From Komagataeibacter sp. FNDCF1 (GTDB lineage Bacteria; Pseudomonadota; Alphaproteobacteria; Acetobacterales; Acetobacteraceae): 64,000 nt of DNA. This document shows positions 25,571-55,250 of this stretch, piece by piece. The stretch spans positions 313,001 to 377,000 of the forward strand of contig NZ_JAIWOT010000001.1 in NCBI RefSeq assembly GCF_021295335.1, read 5' to 3'. The notes under the pieces were generated by a model that had not been told where the DNA came from, made no database searches, and saw only the letters and a list, made by a program, of their open reading frames with translations. Position numbers and translations under genes: made by a program. Position 1 is the stretch's first letter; the number at the start of each line of letters is the position of its first letter.

Positions 25571-26053
25571 ATGATGCATGCGGTTACCAGCCGTATGGGC
25601 TGTCTTGCTGCCGTGCTGTCATGCACGCTGGCCGTGGGAGCGGCGGCCCATGCCCAGCCGGACATGCAGCAGGCTGCCCAGCGCGCCCAGCAGATGCAGC
25701 AGATGCAGCAGCAGTTCCAGCAGCAGCAGATGCAGTTCCGTCAGCAGCAGGACCAGATGCGCATGCAGCGTGACCAGCAGATGCAGCAGATGCGCCAGCA
25801 GTTCCAGCAACAGCAGATGCAGCTTGACCAGCAGGCCCGGCAGATGGGCAACCAGCCCGGTGGCCGTGAACAGATCGAACGCCAGCGCGAGCAGATGCGC
25901 CAGCAGCAGGACCAGCAGATGCAGCAGATGCACCAGCAGTTCAGCCAGCAGGACGAGCAGCTACGCCAGCAGCGCATGCAGATGAACCAGCAGCAGCAGC
26001 AACAGCAGATGCAGCAGTTCGGCCAGATGATGCCCTACCAGCAGAACTGGTAG
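25571..26053 (+). CDS. Exported Gln/Met-rich low-complexity protein
   Basis: 160 residues. The first 30 are a signal peptide ending AHAQ (cleavage near residue 29). The mature part is almost wholly Q, M and R in heptad-like runs (QQMQQMQQQF, QQQMQFRQQQDQMRMQRD) and lacks aromatic or Cys-rich domains. GGGAG lies before the ATG pair. Possible roles are a periplasmic coiled coil, metal (Met-rich) binding or a surface polymer; the sequence decides none. The DNA is highly repetitive (CAGCAG/ATGCAG), so slippage-driven length variation is expected. It converges on the YhaN gene 54 bp away. Confidence 0.75.
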   Translation: MMHAVTSRMGCLAAVLSCTLAVGAAAHAQPDMQQAAQRAQQMQQMQQQFQQQQMQFRQQQDQMRMQRDQQMQQMRQQFQQQQMQLDQQARQMGNQPGGREQIERQREQMRQQQDQQMQQMHQQFSQQDEQLRQQRMQMNQQQQQQQMQQFGQMMPYQQNW

Positions 26054-46607: not shown

Positions 46608-47356
46608 TACTGCCTCACCACTTTGCCGTTCTTTATGGAGTAGAGAACACCAGCTTCAATGCCGTCTTCGCCTTCGTAGATATTGATGAAGCGATTGCGA
46701 GTACCATCATGCCAAACCAAAGATGCCGCACCGCCTTTGCCCAAGCTGACCGAACCGCGCCGCCCCGAAAATGCGACGGTAACATTCTCTCCGGAGCATA
46801 CGATCCGCGCGTCGTCGCCAGAGGAACCGATCCGCGCGCCGTCGCCAGAGGAACCGATCCGCGCGTCGTCGCCAGAGGAACCGATCTGAGCGCCGTAGCC
46901 AGAGGAACCGATCTGAGCGCCGTAGCCAGAGGAACCGATCCGCGCGTCGTCGCCAGAGGAACCGATCCGCGCGCCGTCGCCAGAGGAACCGATCTGAGCG
47001 CCGTAGCCAGAGGAACCGATCCGCGCGTCGTCGCCAGAGGAACCGATCCGCGCGCCGTAGCTCTCGTCAACATCAACGCCTTCGGTTGCGGCAACGATTA
47101 AACGAACGTCGCTTTTGATGAAATCGGCATTGATGTTCTTCACATCGAATGCCTTGTCGGCCAGCCAGCGCGCATCACCGTAACGCTTGTCAGCATAAAG
47201 GCTATTCATGACCTCGCCATACGCGCCGCCCTGGGGAAACTTCTCGCGAAACCAGTCGCGTCCATCGGAGCAAGCGCCCCATTCTCTGATCTTCAGGAGG
47301 GTAATCTGTGCGGGGTTATTTTCGGGAGCATCCGCCTGCTCGATCTGTGCATTCAT
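46607..47356 (-). CDS. Phage protein with tandem nine-residue repeats (probable beta-solenoid)
   Basis: 249 residues from ATG 47356 with GGAGGG upstream. Residues 1-100 form an ordinary domain (REWGACSDGRDWFREKFPQG, YGDARWLADKAFDV). Residues 101-181 are nine near-identical units of the form G/D-A-R/Q-I-G-S-S-G-D/Y, then three degenerate units, then a capping C-terminus. The regular small/hydrophobic pattern suggests a short-pitch beta-solenoid. Similar iterated IATSG/IGSSG repeats occur in other phage proteins of unknown role. The start at 47,404 is rejected because it has no ribosome site and overlaps the upstream gene. Confidence 0.7.
   Translation of the reverse strand: MNAQIEQADAPENNPAQITLLKIREWGACSDGRDWFREKFPQGGAYGEVMNSLYADKRYGDARWLADKAFDVKNINADFIKSDVRLIVAATEGVDVDESYGARIGSSGDDARIGSSGYGAQIGSSGDGARIGSSGDDARIGSSGYGAQIGSSGYGAQIGSSGDDARIGSSGDGARIGSSGDDARIVCSGENVTVAFSGRRGSVSLGKGGAASLVWHDGTRNRFINIYEGEDGIEAGVLYSIKNGKVVRQ
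46814..47056 (-). repeat. Nine tandem 27-bp repeats encoding the nine-residue units
   Basis: Nine in-frame 27-bp units, differing mostly at the codons for D/Y/G and R/Q. They mix two or three unit types (e.g. CGCGTCGTCGCC and TGAGCGCCGTAGCC variants), which suggests recent unit duplication by slippage or unequal exchange. Confidence 0.9.
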
Positions 47357-48198: not shown

Positions 48199-48831
48199 CT
48201 ACCACTTTTTGGGAATATGAAAGTCAACGGGCGATAGCCACTCAATGGGAGGATCATATAGTGGCTTGACAGACGGGTTCACGGAAAAAAGGGCGAATGT
48301 CCCATTTGGTCCTTCTGCTAACGACTTAATTACCGTTTGACCGTCCCCCAGTCTGGCCACTACGTCCCGGCCAAGAAAGTTGTCCCATCCGTCGGGAGCA
48401 TCCGGCGGCTGGATGCCTATGATTTCGCCAGGCGTATATCGCGGAAGCATGGATTCTCCACGCACCCGCAGAAGCAGGCCCGGATAATTGAAGAATGGCA
48501 CTTCAACCATCTCCAATTCGTCTGTGCAGTCGCCGTCGATAAATAGCACTACACGGTCGGCAGCCCCCACATATCCAGAAATCGGCATTTTCTCGGCGGA
48601 TCGCTCACTCATGCCAAGTGCCCTCTTAATTTCGGCAGGAGAGCGCTTCAGTATTTCTGCGAATTTCTCTATCTCATCCGCCTGTAGCCGACGTATGCCC
48701 TTCAAGACATTCGTGAGCTTTGGGCCATCCAGATCTACCTCAGACGCAAAACTGGCCTGGCTTCGGAAGCCAGCCAAGGCAATAGCGTCCTTGAACCATT
48801 TCTTATCGATACCGCTTTTCATGTTTGGCAT
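48199..48831 (-). CDS. CI/LexA-like phage repressor (S24 peptidase family)
   Basis: 210 residues. An N-terminal helix-turn-helix (about 24-50, SQASFASEVDLDGPKLTNVL) precedes a C-terminal S24 domain with Ser127 in GESMLPRY and Lys169 in QTVIKSLAEG. The candidate autocleavage region is SGYVGAAD (85-92). It should repress the PL and PR promoters and be inactivated by RecA-stimulated self-cleavage, so the prophage is probably SOS-inducible. A second in-frame ATG is at 48822. Divergent from the Cro-like gene across operator sites. Confidence 0.88.
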   Translation of the reverse strand: MPNMKSGIDKKWFKDAIALAGFRSQASFASEVDLDGPKLTNVLKGIRRLQADEIEKFAEILKRSPAEIKRALGMSERSAEKMPISGYVGAADRVVLFIDGDCTDELEMVEVPFFNYPGLLLRVRGESMLPRYTPGEIIGIQPPDAPDGWDNFLGRDVVARLGDGQTVIKSLAEGPNGTFALFSVNPSVKPLYDPPIEWLSPVDFHIPKKW

Positions 48832-52125: not shown

Positions 52126-52535
52126 CGGCAATCACCTTCACCGTGCCTGGACCATTGCGCGGGAAAGGTCGCCCACGCTTCGGGAATGGCCGCACCTTCA
52201 CAGATAGCAAAACCATGACGGCAGAGGCTTTCGTGCGGTCCTGCGCCGCCCTCGCGTGTCCTCTGGCTCCCATAGATGGTCCCGTGTCTCTGGATATCCG
52301 CATCACCCGCGGCATTCCGAAATCGTGGCCGAACAAGAGGCGCCAAGCAGCCTTGCAGGGCCGCCTGCACGCTACCGGAAAACCCGATCTGGATAACGTG
52401 GTCAAGCTGGTGGGCGATGCGCTGAACGGCATCATCTGGCGCGACGACAGCCAGATCACATCAGTTACCTGCTCCCGCCATTTTGGCGAGGTTGAGCAGT
52501 CGGTCATCAGCATTCAATCGTTGGAGGCATCATGA
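52122..52535 (+). CDS. rusA: RusA-family Holliday junction resolvase
   Basis: 137 residues from ATG 52122. The family signature KPDLDNVVKLVGDALNGI followed by WRDDSQI supplies the catalytic acidic residues (Asp89, Asp91 and Asp108/109) matching the Asp triad of RusA. It resolves recombination intermediates in phage DNA. It overlaps its neighbours by 4 bp. Confidence 0.9.
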   Translation: MTAITFTVPGPLRGKGRPRFGNGRTFTDSKTMTAEAFVRSCAALACPLAPIDGPVSLDIRITRGIPKSWPNKRRQAALQGRLHATGKPDLDNVVKLVGDALNGIIWRDDSQITSVTCSRHFGEVEQSVISIQSLEAS

Positions 52536-53536
52536 GCATAAAAGCCATCAACTGGGCGCTTATGCAGGCAGCCCTGGCGCCATCTCCAAAGCTGGTTTTG
52601 ATCGTTTTGGCCAATCGGGCCAACGCGCAATTCAAGGCGTGGCCATCCATTGAGACGATCTGCCGTGAAAGCGGACTGAGCGACCGCACCGCTCGTCGCG
52701 CTCTTTCTGAACTGGAGAAGGCATCTCTGATTGAGCATGTCGGGTTTTCTTTCAGGGCAAAATGCTACCTTCTGAAAGTGCCAACTGGCTTTGAAATGCC
52801 CGTCGAGGCGGCTGATCTGACCGGTCAAATTGACCACGTAACCGGTCAAAATCGACACGTAACCGGTCATGATGGCCGACTACAGGGAAACGTAACCGGT
52901 CATTCTGACCATCTGACCGGTCAAATTGACCACGTAACCGGTCAAAATCGACACGTAACCGGTCATGATGGCCGACTACAGGGAAACGTAACCGGTCATT
53001 CTGACCATCTGACCGGTCAAATTGACCACGTAACCGGTCATGGTGACAACGTAACCGGTCACCATGACCGACAAACCATCATGAACCATCAAAGGAACCA
53101 TCAGGAACCGTCAGGATCTGGAAGTGAGATCAGCGAGCCGGAACTGACCATCGACACCGCATGGCGTCCTCTGGTCCGACAGGTTCAGGATGTGGCCGGA
53201 TATGACCTGGCGCGGCTGATGCCTAGCGCAGCCGATGGCGGTGAAGTTCGCCAGTGGCTGGCAGACATCACCGCCAAAGGCCATTCGGTGCAGGGCGCAT
53301 CCGAGATCATCCTGATGGCCGTCAGTGGCGTGATGGAGCGTCGGCGCGATCAGGGACCGCCCAATACCCTGCGCTATTTCCGCAATGCCGTGGCCGAGAT
53401 GGCCGCCGCAACGCCAACCCGTGAGGCTGCCCGCATGGAGGCGGCCTACCTCGAATACACCAAGGTCGAGATGCGCCATAAGCGCCGGCCGAAGTCCTGG
53501 ACCGTGTTCCAGAAGGAATGGAGTTCTGCAGCATGA
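52532..53536 (+). CDS. Replication initiator-like protein with internal repeat (lambda O-like)
   Basis: 334 residues. The N-terminal winged helix (WPSIETICRESGLSDRTARR) is the phage replication-protein type. Residues 95-177 are 32-residue repeats of the pattern VTGH/VTGQ. The C-terminal 150 residues (DIDTAWRPLVRQVQDVAG onwards) would bind helicase or a loader. As in lambda O, the origin appears to be inside the gene: the repeat DNA is an iteron array. DnaB helicase follows closely. The initiator role is inferred from position, HTH and the repeats. Confidence 0.75.
   Translation: MSIKAINWALMQAALAPSPKLVLIVLANRANAQFKAWPSIETICRESGLSDRTARRALSELEKASLIEHVGFSFRAKCYLLKVPTGFEMPVEAADLTGQIDHVTGQNRHVTGHDGRLQGNVTGHSDHLTGQIDHVTGQNRHVTGHDGRLQGNVTGHSDHLTGQIDHVTGHGDNVTGHHDRQTIMNHQRNHQEPSGSGSEISEPELTIDTAWRPLVRQVQDVAGYDLARLMPSAADGGEVRQWLADITAKGHSVQGASEIILMAVSGVMERRRDQGPPNTLRYFRNAVAEMAAATPTREAARMEAAYLEYTKVEMRHKRRPKSWTVFQKEWSSAA
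52817..53061 (+). repeat. Iteron array within the initiator gene, probable phage replication origin
   Basis: Eleven copies of ACCGGTCA at 52820, 52841, 52862, 52895, 52916, 52937, 52958, 52991, 53012, 53033 and 53054. A 96-bp direct repeat occurs twice and partly a third time (starts 52817, 52913, 53009). Spacings of 21, 21, 33 and 21 bp repeat and are near whole helical turns, so all sites face the same side of the DNA. Confidence 0.8.
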
Positions 53537-53748
53537 GCGCCGAGATCATCCCTTTTCCGCCGTCCCTGAACCTGTATCTGGCCCCGATGTATGCCGAACG
53601 GCATTTCCGGGAAGCGCGCCAGAAGATGCTTGAGGCTTTCCACGAGGTCATCAGGTCAGGCGGCTACCCCACCAGCCTGCGCGACGAAGCCATGGCGACA
53701 TGGAACGCGATGCGCGGCCTGATCGAAATCGAGGAGATGGAGGCTTGA
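53533..53748 (+). CDS. Phage protein of unknown function, replication module
   Basis: 71 residues from ATG 53533, overlapping the initiator stop (ATGA). It opens MSAEIIPFPPSLNLYLAPMY and continues helical (EARQKMLEAFHEVI). It sits between initiator and DnaB, where loaders or accessory factors are usual, but no loader motif is visible. Confidence 0.6.
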   Translation: MSAEIIPFPPSLNLYLAPMYAERHFREARQKMLEAFHEVIRSGGYPTSLRDEAMATWNAMRGLIEIEEMEA

Positions 53749-55250
53749 ACGAAATCCATTTCCCGCCTGGGGCGGAAATCACGCCTGACGCCCCGGTGAA
53801 TATCCAGGCCGAAATCGGCGTGATCGGCGGCATCTTGATGGACAATCGCGGGTATGAACTGGTTTGCGATTTCCTCGAAAAACGCCATTTCGCTAATTCC
53901 GTGAACGGCTGGCTGTATGGCGAGATCGAGAAAGTCATACAGTCCGGGGTTGAGGCGAACCCGATCACGATGAAGGCGCGAGTTGAAAACGCGATTGAAC
54001 TGGAATCGGTCGGTGGGTTTCGATACCTGATGACCGCAGTCCAGTCGCAGCCGGGGTGGATGGGGTGCCGTGGGTCCGGGCATGCCGTTCGGGACGCATG
54101 GCTCCGTCGCCAGCTTCTGGATATCGGCTCCATGGCGAAGTCCCGCGCCATGTCCGGTGAAGGATCTGCGCCGGAAGAAATCATTGACGACATTGAGCAG
54201 GAACTTCTTGCGCTCGGGAAAGATCGTGGCGACCAGCGCCTGACAAGCCTCACTTCCGCGATGGATCAAGCCATGGAGGCAGCCTCTGCGGCGGCAGCCC
54301 GCGGAGACGGCATCATCGGCATGCGAACCGGCTTCCAGAAGCTGGACGAGGAAACCAGCGGCCTTGCTCCGGGGTGCTTATACCTGCTGGCCGGTCGCCC
54401 ATCCATGGGTAAAACCGGCATGGGAGTGGGGATTGCTGTTCGCGCGGCCAAACTTTCCCAGAAGCCAGTCCTCTACTGGTCTGGCGAAATGGACGCCGCG
54501 TCGATATCGGCCAGGATCATCTCGGCCCATTCACGGTTGCCGTTGCGCTGGGTGCTGACCGGCACAAAGCCGGGACCGCGCAATCCAGACGGATCGGATG
54601 GACCGCGCTTACCCCTTACTCAGCGCGAATGGGACAGGATTTTCATGGCCCGCAAGGCAGCCGAGCAGGTTCCCGTTGTGGTCGATGATCGGCCTGCTGT
54701 CACCGTGGCGCAGCTTTATGGCCGGGCGAGACGCATGGCGCGGTCCAAGGCAGGCCTGGGCATGATCGTGGTTGATTACGTTGGCCTGATGCGCGGCACG
54801 CCCACAACCCGCAAGCAGGGGAAGTATGCCGAAGTCAGTGAGATCAGTAGTGACCTGCTGGCGCTGGCCAAAAGCCTGAATGTGCCGGTCCTTGGCTTGC
54901 AGCAGCTCAACCGAGGCGTGGAAGGACGCGACGACAAGCACCCGACCATGGCGGACCTGCGCGACAGTGGGAATCTGGAACAGGATGCCAGCGGGATATT
55001 CCTGCTCTATCGGGATCACTACTACGCTCAGCGCGATCCCGAACCGACCAAACGACCGGCGGAAAATATGGACACCTTCAGCCAGCGCGTTGACGCGTGG
55101 CATGAGCGCATCCGCGCTTCCGAGGGGAAGGCGGAGATCATCATTGCCAAGAACCGGCAGGGCGATTGCGGTACGGTTCCGATGCTGTTCAACGGCCCGA
55201 CGACATGGTTCCGCGACGTGCGGGAAGGTGAGGAAAGCGCGGCATGGTGA
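53745..55250 (+). CDS. dnaB: Replicative DNA helicase, DnaB family
   Basis: 501 residues from a TTG at 53745 that overlaps the previous stop (TTGA) with GGAGG just upstream; the longer frame to 53,700 lies inside that gene. The N-terminal domain (AEIGVIGGILMDN) is DnaB-like. The C-terminal motor has Walker A AGRPSMGKTG (216-225), Walker B IVVDYVGLM, and the GLQQLNRGVEGRD and DLRDSGNLEQDA motifs. It unwinds DNA at the phage fork. Complete. Confidence 0.93.
   Translation: MNEIHFPPGAEITPDAPVNIQAEIGVIGGILMDNRGYELVCDFLEKRHFANSVNGWLYGEIEKVIQSGVEANPITMKARVENAIELESVGGFRYLMTAVQSQPGWMGCRGSGHAVRDAWLRRQLLDIGSMAKSRAMSGEGSAPEEIIDDIEQELLALGKDRGDQRLTSLTSAMDQAMEAASAAAARGDGIIGMRTGFQKLDEETSGLAPGCLYLLAGRPSMGKTGMGVGIAVRAAKLSQKPVLYWSGEMDAASISARIISAHSRLPLRWVLTGTKPGPRNPDGSDGPRLPLTQREWDRIFMARKAAEQVPVVVDDRPAVTVAQLYGRARRMARSKAGLGMIVVDYVGLMRGTPTTRKQGKYAEVSEISSDLLALAKSLNVPVLGLQQLNRGVEGRDDKHPTMADLRDSGNLEQDASGIFLLYRDHYYAQRDPEPTKRPAENMDTFSQRVDAWHERIRASEGKAEIIIAKNRQGDCGTVPMLFNGPTTWFRDVREGEESAAW

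Follow-up and report, generated by a model that had tools for sequence, protein, structure and literature searches.

What does a tandem DNA repeat do in the middle of the gene for a phage-type replication initiator? The window analysed here, a stretch of 64,000 nucleotides that is part of a 3.74-Mb genome, carries such a gene, and from sequence comparison its repeats are most probably (with a probability of roughly 0.85) a prophage replication origin, placed inside the initiator gene as in lambda O and read by the N-terminal domain of the protein itself. Computation yielded the dyads and their array, a neighbouring AACC ladder, constraint at the DNA level across homologues, covariation of the recognition helix with the repeated word, exchange of cassettes between genes and the gene neighbourhood.

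The stretch around the initiator looks like a prophage. In the ORF list, combined with Pfam and PHROG matches, an S24 repressor gene (48199-48831) stands with genes for a Rha-like regulator, RusA, the initiator and a DnaB-like helicase, and terminase and portal genes lie further along by our reading of the list. A Pfam scan of eight neighbouring ORFs gave no lambda P family, and a DnaB-like helicase gene is present instead. The 71-aa ORF in the interval between initiator and helicase is without any Pfam family in the Pfam scan; as a guess, its product might be a loader. Elsewhere in the window, a 27-bp tandem repeat (46801-47058, 9.6 copies, 91% matches) lies in a minus-strand ORF for an ARIGSSG repeat protein, and CAG-rich tandem repeats of 21 and 33 bp occupy 25688-26001.

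Table 1. Features of the initiator locus (window coordinates).
Feature	Position	Strand	Basis and remarks
RusA-like Holliday junction resolvase gene, upstream neighbour	52131..52535	+	PF05866, E=3.8e-28
Initiator gene, 334 aa	52532..53536	+	ORF; HTH_36 N-domain, linker read from the proposed origin, helical C-domain
Winged-helix DNA-binding domain, codons 3-81	52538..52774	+	AlphaFold2 model: four helices, two strands
Recognition helix, codons 51-63	52682..52720	+	AlphaFold2 model and covariation
Iteron array, eleven 13-bp dyads, 96-bp higher-order repeat	52818..53072	+	Sequence
ACCGGTCA starts	52820, 52841, 52862, 52895, 52916, 52937, 52958, 52991, 53012, 53033, 53054	+	Sequence
Dyad starts	52823, 52844, 52865, 52898, 52919, 52940, 52961, 52994, 53015, 53036, 53057	+	
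AACC ladder	53074..53109	+	Rungs at 53074, 53084, 53096, 53106; steps 10, 12, 10; three reading frames
Helical C-domain, codons 207-333	53150..53530	+	AlphaFold2 model
71-aa ORF, initiator/helicase interval	53533..53748	+	ATG at 53533; ORF list start 53518
Phage DnaB-like replicative helicase gene	53700..55250	+	PF03796, E=3.2e-70; phrog_19

All eleven ACCGGTCA sites of the preliminary description are present on the plus strand between 52820 and 53061, and its spacings are real (in full 21, 21, 33, 21, 21, 21, 33, 21, 21 and 21 bp), as is the 96-bp period (2.7 copies, 95% matches). Over both strands of the 64-kb window ACCGGTCA has 17 matches against 2.02 expected, a number reached in 0 of 100 shuffles. 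The unit is larger than this 8-mer, since a 13-bp dyad, GGTCA-N3-TGACC, starts at each GG, with arms pairing at 5/5 positions in six of the eleven copies, at 4/5 in three and at 2/5 in two. The iteron-type origin inside the gene that had been proposed gains comparative support, while its site becomes the dyad rather than the 8-mer alone and the AACC ladder has to be added to it. The array corresponds to codons 96-181 and starts 288 bp inside the initiator gene. The VTGQ/VTGH peptide that it encodes also exists (3 of the 11 units read LTGQ), and it looks like a by-product.

The N-terminus of the initiator (residues 17-67) matches HTH_36 (PF13730; E=3.6e-14; 52.8 bits, the cutoff being 25), and its PHROG matches (phrog_1032, phrog_391 and phrog_270, best E=1.1e-18) are to replication initiation or O-like proteins. 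Phage_rep_O (PF04492), which lambda O matched in the same library with 5.7e-36, gave no match in the initiator at E<=1, and RepA_N (PF06970) was likewise absent from its Pfam matches at E<=1. In the AlphaFold2 model the winged-helix domain is predicted with a mean pLDDT of 76-97 over ten-residue blocks, and residues 91-191, which coincide with the stretch encoded by the array, are predicted to be disordered. The C-domain weakly matches a primosomal protein in PHROG (E=0.0021) and presumably contacts the helicase or primosome. Foldseek found no match in the PDB at E<=0.001, the top of the list being mostly generic winged helices, and 84 matches at E<=0.001 in a viral library, with many HTH phage proteins among those listed. 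When the N-domain profile was run against PDB sequences, a single chain, from a designed helical repeat protein in which no stretch passed alone, fell below 0.001, and the remaining matches were mostly weak ones to transcription regulators. Of the relatives of the initiator found in named genomes, that in Komagataeibacter intermedius TF2 is nearest (79% over its best segment), which suggests an acetic-acid bacterium as the host.

Homologues came from genome searches and viral contigs, which gave 99 HTH gene hits, 87 of them distinct; 63 passed the limits of E<1e-13, profile start and length, and 57, the window gene included, were left below 85% identity. An array was called when a chain of 10-mers with at least 3 copies was reached by at most 1 in 40 resamplings of synonymous codons. 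This superseded an earlier dyad-count test with synonymous permutation, which performed poorly because permuting a gene's own codons keeps the codons of the repeat and GC-rich genes give low-complexity hits. By the chain test, arrays within the gene exceeded synonymous resampling in 35 of the 57 non-redundant homologues, among them the window gene, and 22 missed the threshold; among the longest other ORFs at the same loci, taken as controls, 4 of 61 passed. Visible in-frame arrays occur below the threshold in L021, L030, L041 and L090, while among the homologue arrays listed L022, L028, L031 and L095 had nothing over the null. The array words vary, with GGAAC types in L002, L037 and L041, GGCA types in L014 and L021, and longer dyads elsewhere.

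The same script recovers the four annotated iterons of lambda O, and in a check set of named phages and one plasmid (19 loci, of which one ORF was too short and 18 were used) arrays were found at 14 loci, including phages of Acinetobacter, Vibrio, Pseudomonas, Arthrobacter, Moraxella, Burkholderia and Pseudanabaena. The failures were L114, L119, L120 and L129, the sole plasmid of the set, which had neither an array over the null nor a ladder. In the records of two phages, Pam5 (L127 from 1501) and QHHSV-1 (L128 from 1501), the HTH initiator frame is without annotation, and the QHHSV-1 record has opposite-strand ORFs annotated there. In L142, L203, L147, L078, L079, L089, L126, L124 and L164 the 5′ copies are ∼17 bp apart, and the later ones mostly 21-23 bp towards the ladder.

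The AACC ladder lies immediately 3′ of the array, and neither strand of the window has another with at least three rungs (pattern matches: 2, overlapping, with 0.06 expected). At least three rungs at 9-13-bp steps were present in 30 of the 57 homologues compared with 3.7% of synonymous resamplings, in none of 57 opposite strands and none of 61 control ORFs, and in 6 of the 18 check-set loci against 4.2% expected. Steps were 10-12 bp in 74 of 83 cases, and of the 43 genes with two or more rungs, 30 have them in different frames; thus the NHQ, EPS and TIK peptide strings come from a single DNA word translated in three frames. The word stays constant across homologues while the iterons differ. 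Genome-wide, the loose three-rung pattern showed no enrichment (7 matches forward and 3 in reverse, the control having 6 and 9), and hence a match to the short pattern carries no weight by itself.

A longer form of the ladder, used as a DNA-only scan of viral contigs, found at least 120 stretches compared with 5 for the reversed pattern, and the 80 listed loci that were analysed contained 96 hits. Thirty-nine of these fall 91-298 bp past the HTH profile, in the frame that encodes it; the other 57, outside a recognised HTH frame, are mostly simple repeats with a few truncated initiators, so that the excess over the reversed pattern is partly low-complexity DNA. Long AACC-containing minisatellites that mimic the ladder (TVTGT or RNRHR strings) occur in L143, L144, L163, L184 and L187. 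Of the 24 non-redundant HTH genes obtained in this way, 23 have iterons arrayed 5′ of the ladder, judged at 5/100 rather than 1/40.

Thirteen relatives match the C-domain only, and 11 of them, which are kin of one another, carry 5-6 rungs, past the null in 10 (38/200 for L017); L004 and L026 had no rungs. The 11 (L017, L019, L024, L025, L027, L029, L034, L036, L038, L040 and L042) are initiator-like with a different N-domain and ladder steps of mostly 12 bp, and many of them have AAGCT/AGCTT repeats further 3′. Duplex stability over array and ladder is only moderately below that elsewhere in the window (60-bp windows from 52800 to 53080 give z 0.6 to 1.6), and the least stable stretch among those listed is before the array, at 52720 (z 1.96). 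The profile has no sharp minimum at the ladder, which either favours sequence recognition over mere AT-richness or speaks against opening there.

The plan, though this likeness is no evidence of descent, is that of lambda O and ori-lambda (Phage_rep_O, PF04492) and of P22 gene 18, where the origin lies in the middle of the initiator gene and inverted-repeat iterons are about two turns apart. The preliminary description was right to call it like lambda O with other repeats and more sites, 11 compared with 4 in lambda; the window initiator differs further by its PF13730 N-domain, the word of its sites and its DnaB-like helicase neighbour. In lambda-type genes additional iterons are reported to make the protein longer (PMC7466680). 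The element 3′ of the iterons also differs: it is the CACAAAAGA stretch shared by lambda, mEpX1, mEp043, Pm34, phiEt88 and P22, and the AACC ladder in the window. Among nine genes found with the N-domain of lambda O, six (L130, L266, L267, L268, L269 and L270) have differing iterons and then the shared CACAAAAGA, none has three or more AACC rungs, and two, Brookers and Spoks, have no evident array by inspection with no null applied. The lambda-type A-rich element is absent 3′ of the window iterons, GC being about 0.5 over 53040-53139.

Gram-positive phage initiators such as SPP1 gp38 and that of TP901-1 also have the origin inside or at the initiator gene. In plasmid pSK41, according to one report, four Rep boxes bound by the N-domain lie centrally within rep, and the origin-encoded linker is dispensable (PMC5703833). 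RepA_N replicons of this kind are unlike the window initiator in having the RepA_N domain and in being plasmids of Gram-positive hosts. The same report describes the staphylococcal pPR9 Rep as a pfam13730 N-domain on the C-domain of pSK41, the two plasmids differing over ∼500 bp that span N-domain and origin, with a pPR9 rep region that replicates autonomously (PMC5703833). Compared by that description, pPR9 Rep resembles the window initiator in its N-domain family and in an N-domain and origin that move as a block, and differs in being from a plasmid and in having another C-domain.

Readings of the array as operator only, peptide repeat, neutral duplication or RNA hairpin were set aside. We consider it unlikely that the array serves chiefly as an operator or for incompatibility control, throttling transcription or copy number, with the origin elsewhere. 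Iterons of iteron plasmids serve control as well as initiation, and the predicted binding of the N-domain would suit such a role equally well; however, an array 288 bp inside the gene is away from any promoter position, a second recurrent element follows the array in many homologues, and the origins of lambda and pSK41 are reported to occupy the same place (PMC7466680, PMC5703833).

Selection for the VTGQ/VTGH linker peptide, which the DNA repetition would simply follow, is very improbable. It would fit the window gene and its nearest relative, L001 (7 sites with the same 21/33 pattern), in both of which all copies are in one frame, and it would fit the synonymous resampling of the window gene, which gave a mean of 10.9 copies and in 1 of 40 trials matched the array as it stands; with a peptide that is itself repetitive, resampling this gene alone hardly separates selection on DNA from selection on peptide. 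Across homologues, in contrast, copies occupy more than one frame in 24 of the 35 genes with significant arrays and in all 23 of the ladder-found genes, as spacings, usually 21-24 bp, are often 22 or 23 bp. Moreover, the uncommon codons GTA and GGT are fixed across distinct unit types of the window gene: GTA is the Val codon in 5 of 5 Val-bearing types against 8.8% in ten other phage genes, and GGT the Gly codon in 6 of 6 types against 12.7%. All 7 contiguous L001 units keep the 8-mer while only 54 of the 86 same-residue codons of the N-domain are identical between L001 and the window, a comparison that is partly circular and supporting evidence only, because the units were located by the 8-mer itself; gene conversion inside arrays could contribute to the identity of the words. 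The predicted disorder of the linker also argues against a selected peptide.

Significant arrays give 246 spacings, of which 153 are 20-25 bp, 29 are 16-18 bp and 105 are multiples of three. The joint tuning of spacing to helical pitch and codons that had been proposed is thus no rule, since relatives at 22 or 23 bp shift frame, and it is unlike lambda as well, with spacings of 20, 24 and 23.

The iteron word was then compared with the N-domain in a set of 57 genes different from the homologue set, made up of the 35 significant genes, 7 picked by eye (L008, L021, L030, L041, L046, L090 and L098) and 15 of the 18 validation genes (L114, L115 and L129 were omitted; L119 and L120 were kept though under threshold), using 1576 pairs below 60% identity. 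Once the remainder of the domain is controlled for, word similarity tracks identity at residues 50-66 (partial r 0.37, reached in 0 of 2000 permutations). In a scan with blocks of 17 residues the signal peaks at 49-65 (0.41), the top single residues are 52, 55, 50 and 51, and residues 50-55, which covary most with the word, largely fall in the modelled recognition helix (51-63). The rest of the domain retains a partial r of 0.19 (0 of 2000 permutations), and hence shared ancestry is not fully removed. A Curtobacterium provirus (L003), with an N-domain 33-39% identical to that of the window, has the same helix residues, RRALSELE, and the same word, of which it carries one degenerate and three exact ACCGGTCA copies, the exact ones each in a different reading frame. 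The covariation suggests that the array is read by the initiator's own N-domain.

Functionless neutral tandem duplication of a short segment is more doubtful still than a selected peptide: the 96-bp unit was recently duplicated (95% matches) and array length varies (11 sites against 7 in L001), but arrays with different words stand at the same place in phages of many hosts, and duplication would yield neither symmetric dyads nor covariation with the helix. That the dyads are hairpins of the mRNA is scarcely credible, for although GGUCA-N3-UGACC pairing is possible from the sequence, the 13-bp sites with at least 3/5 pairs in eight genes have 210 of 235 cells Watson-Crick, 20 other mismatches and only 5 G-T, thus no G-T excess, and the covariation of helix and word indicates protein-DNA contact.

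Two cases suggest, from their sequences, that N-domain and array are swapped as one cassette. The first is L004, whose C-domain is 95% identical to that of the window and which, examined as a relative that might keep the protein and lose the repeats, is without the window-type N-domain as well as the repeats; it has a DUF1376 N-domain and, by eye, repeats of another word, and its common sequence with the window starts at 53140, 31 bp past the ladder. In Edwardsiella phage GF-2, the C-domain is that of lambda O (62% over 144 aa), joined to an HTH_36 N-domain with iterons of its own.

In an origin of this kind, winged-helix dimers would bind the GGTCA-N3-TGACC dyads and, as these are about two helical turns apart, may stack along the same face of the double helix. 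The resulting nucleoprotein complex would open the DNA at the adjacent AACC ladder, a putative unwinding or loading element, and the C-domain on its flexible linker may recruit the phage DnaB-like helicase. The main constraint on the linker would then be that the reading frame is kept open.

The literature searched, with subscription journals mostly outside it, gave no account of iterons within the gene across HTH_36 phages or of the AACC ladder. The broader proposal, on which we are evenly divided, is that HTH_36 initiators form a large class in phages across bacterial phyla, with origins of two separately evolving parts inside the gene, namely iterons that follow the recognition helix and a frame-indifferent AACC ladder with one rung per turn, a sequence-specific element for opening or helicase loading read by a shared factor; a second class would have another N-domain and the same ladder. 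The finding offers a route from sequence alone to proposed origins in phages annotated just as ‘helix-turn-helix protein’ or ‘primosomal protein’, and, in the pairing of recognition helix with iteron word, a natural code open to binding assays, and the AACC ladder becomes a candidate unwinding or loading element.
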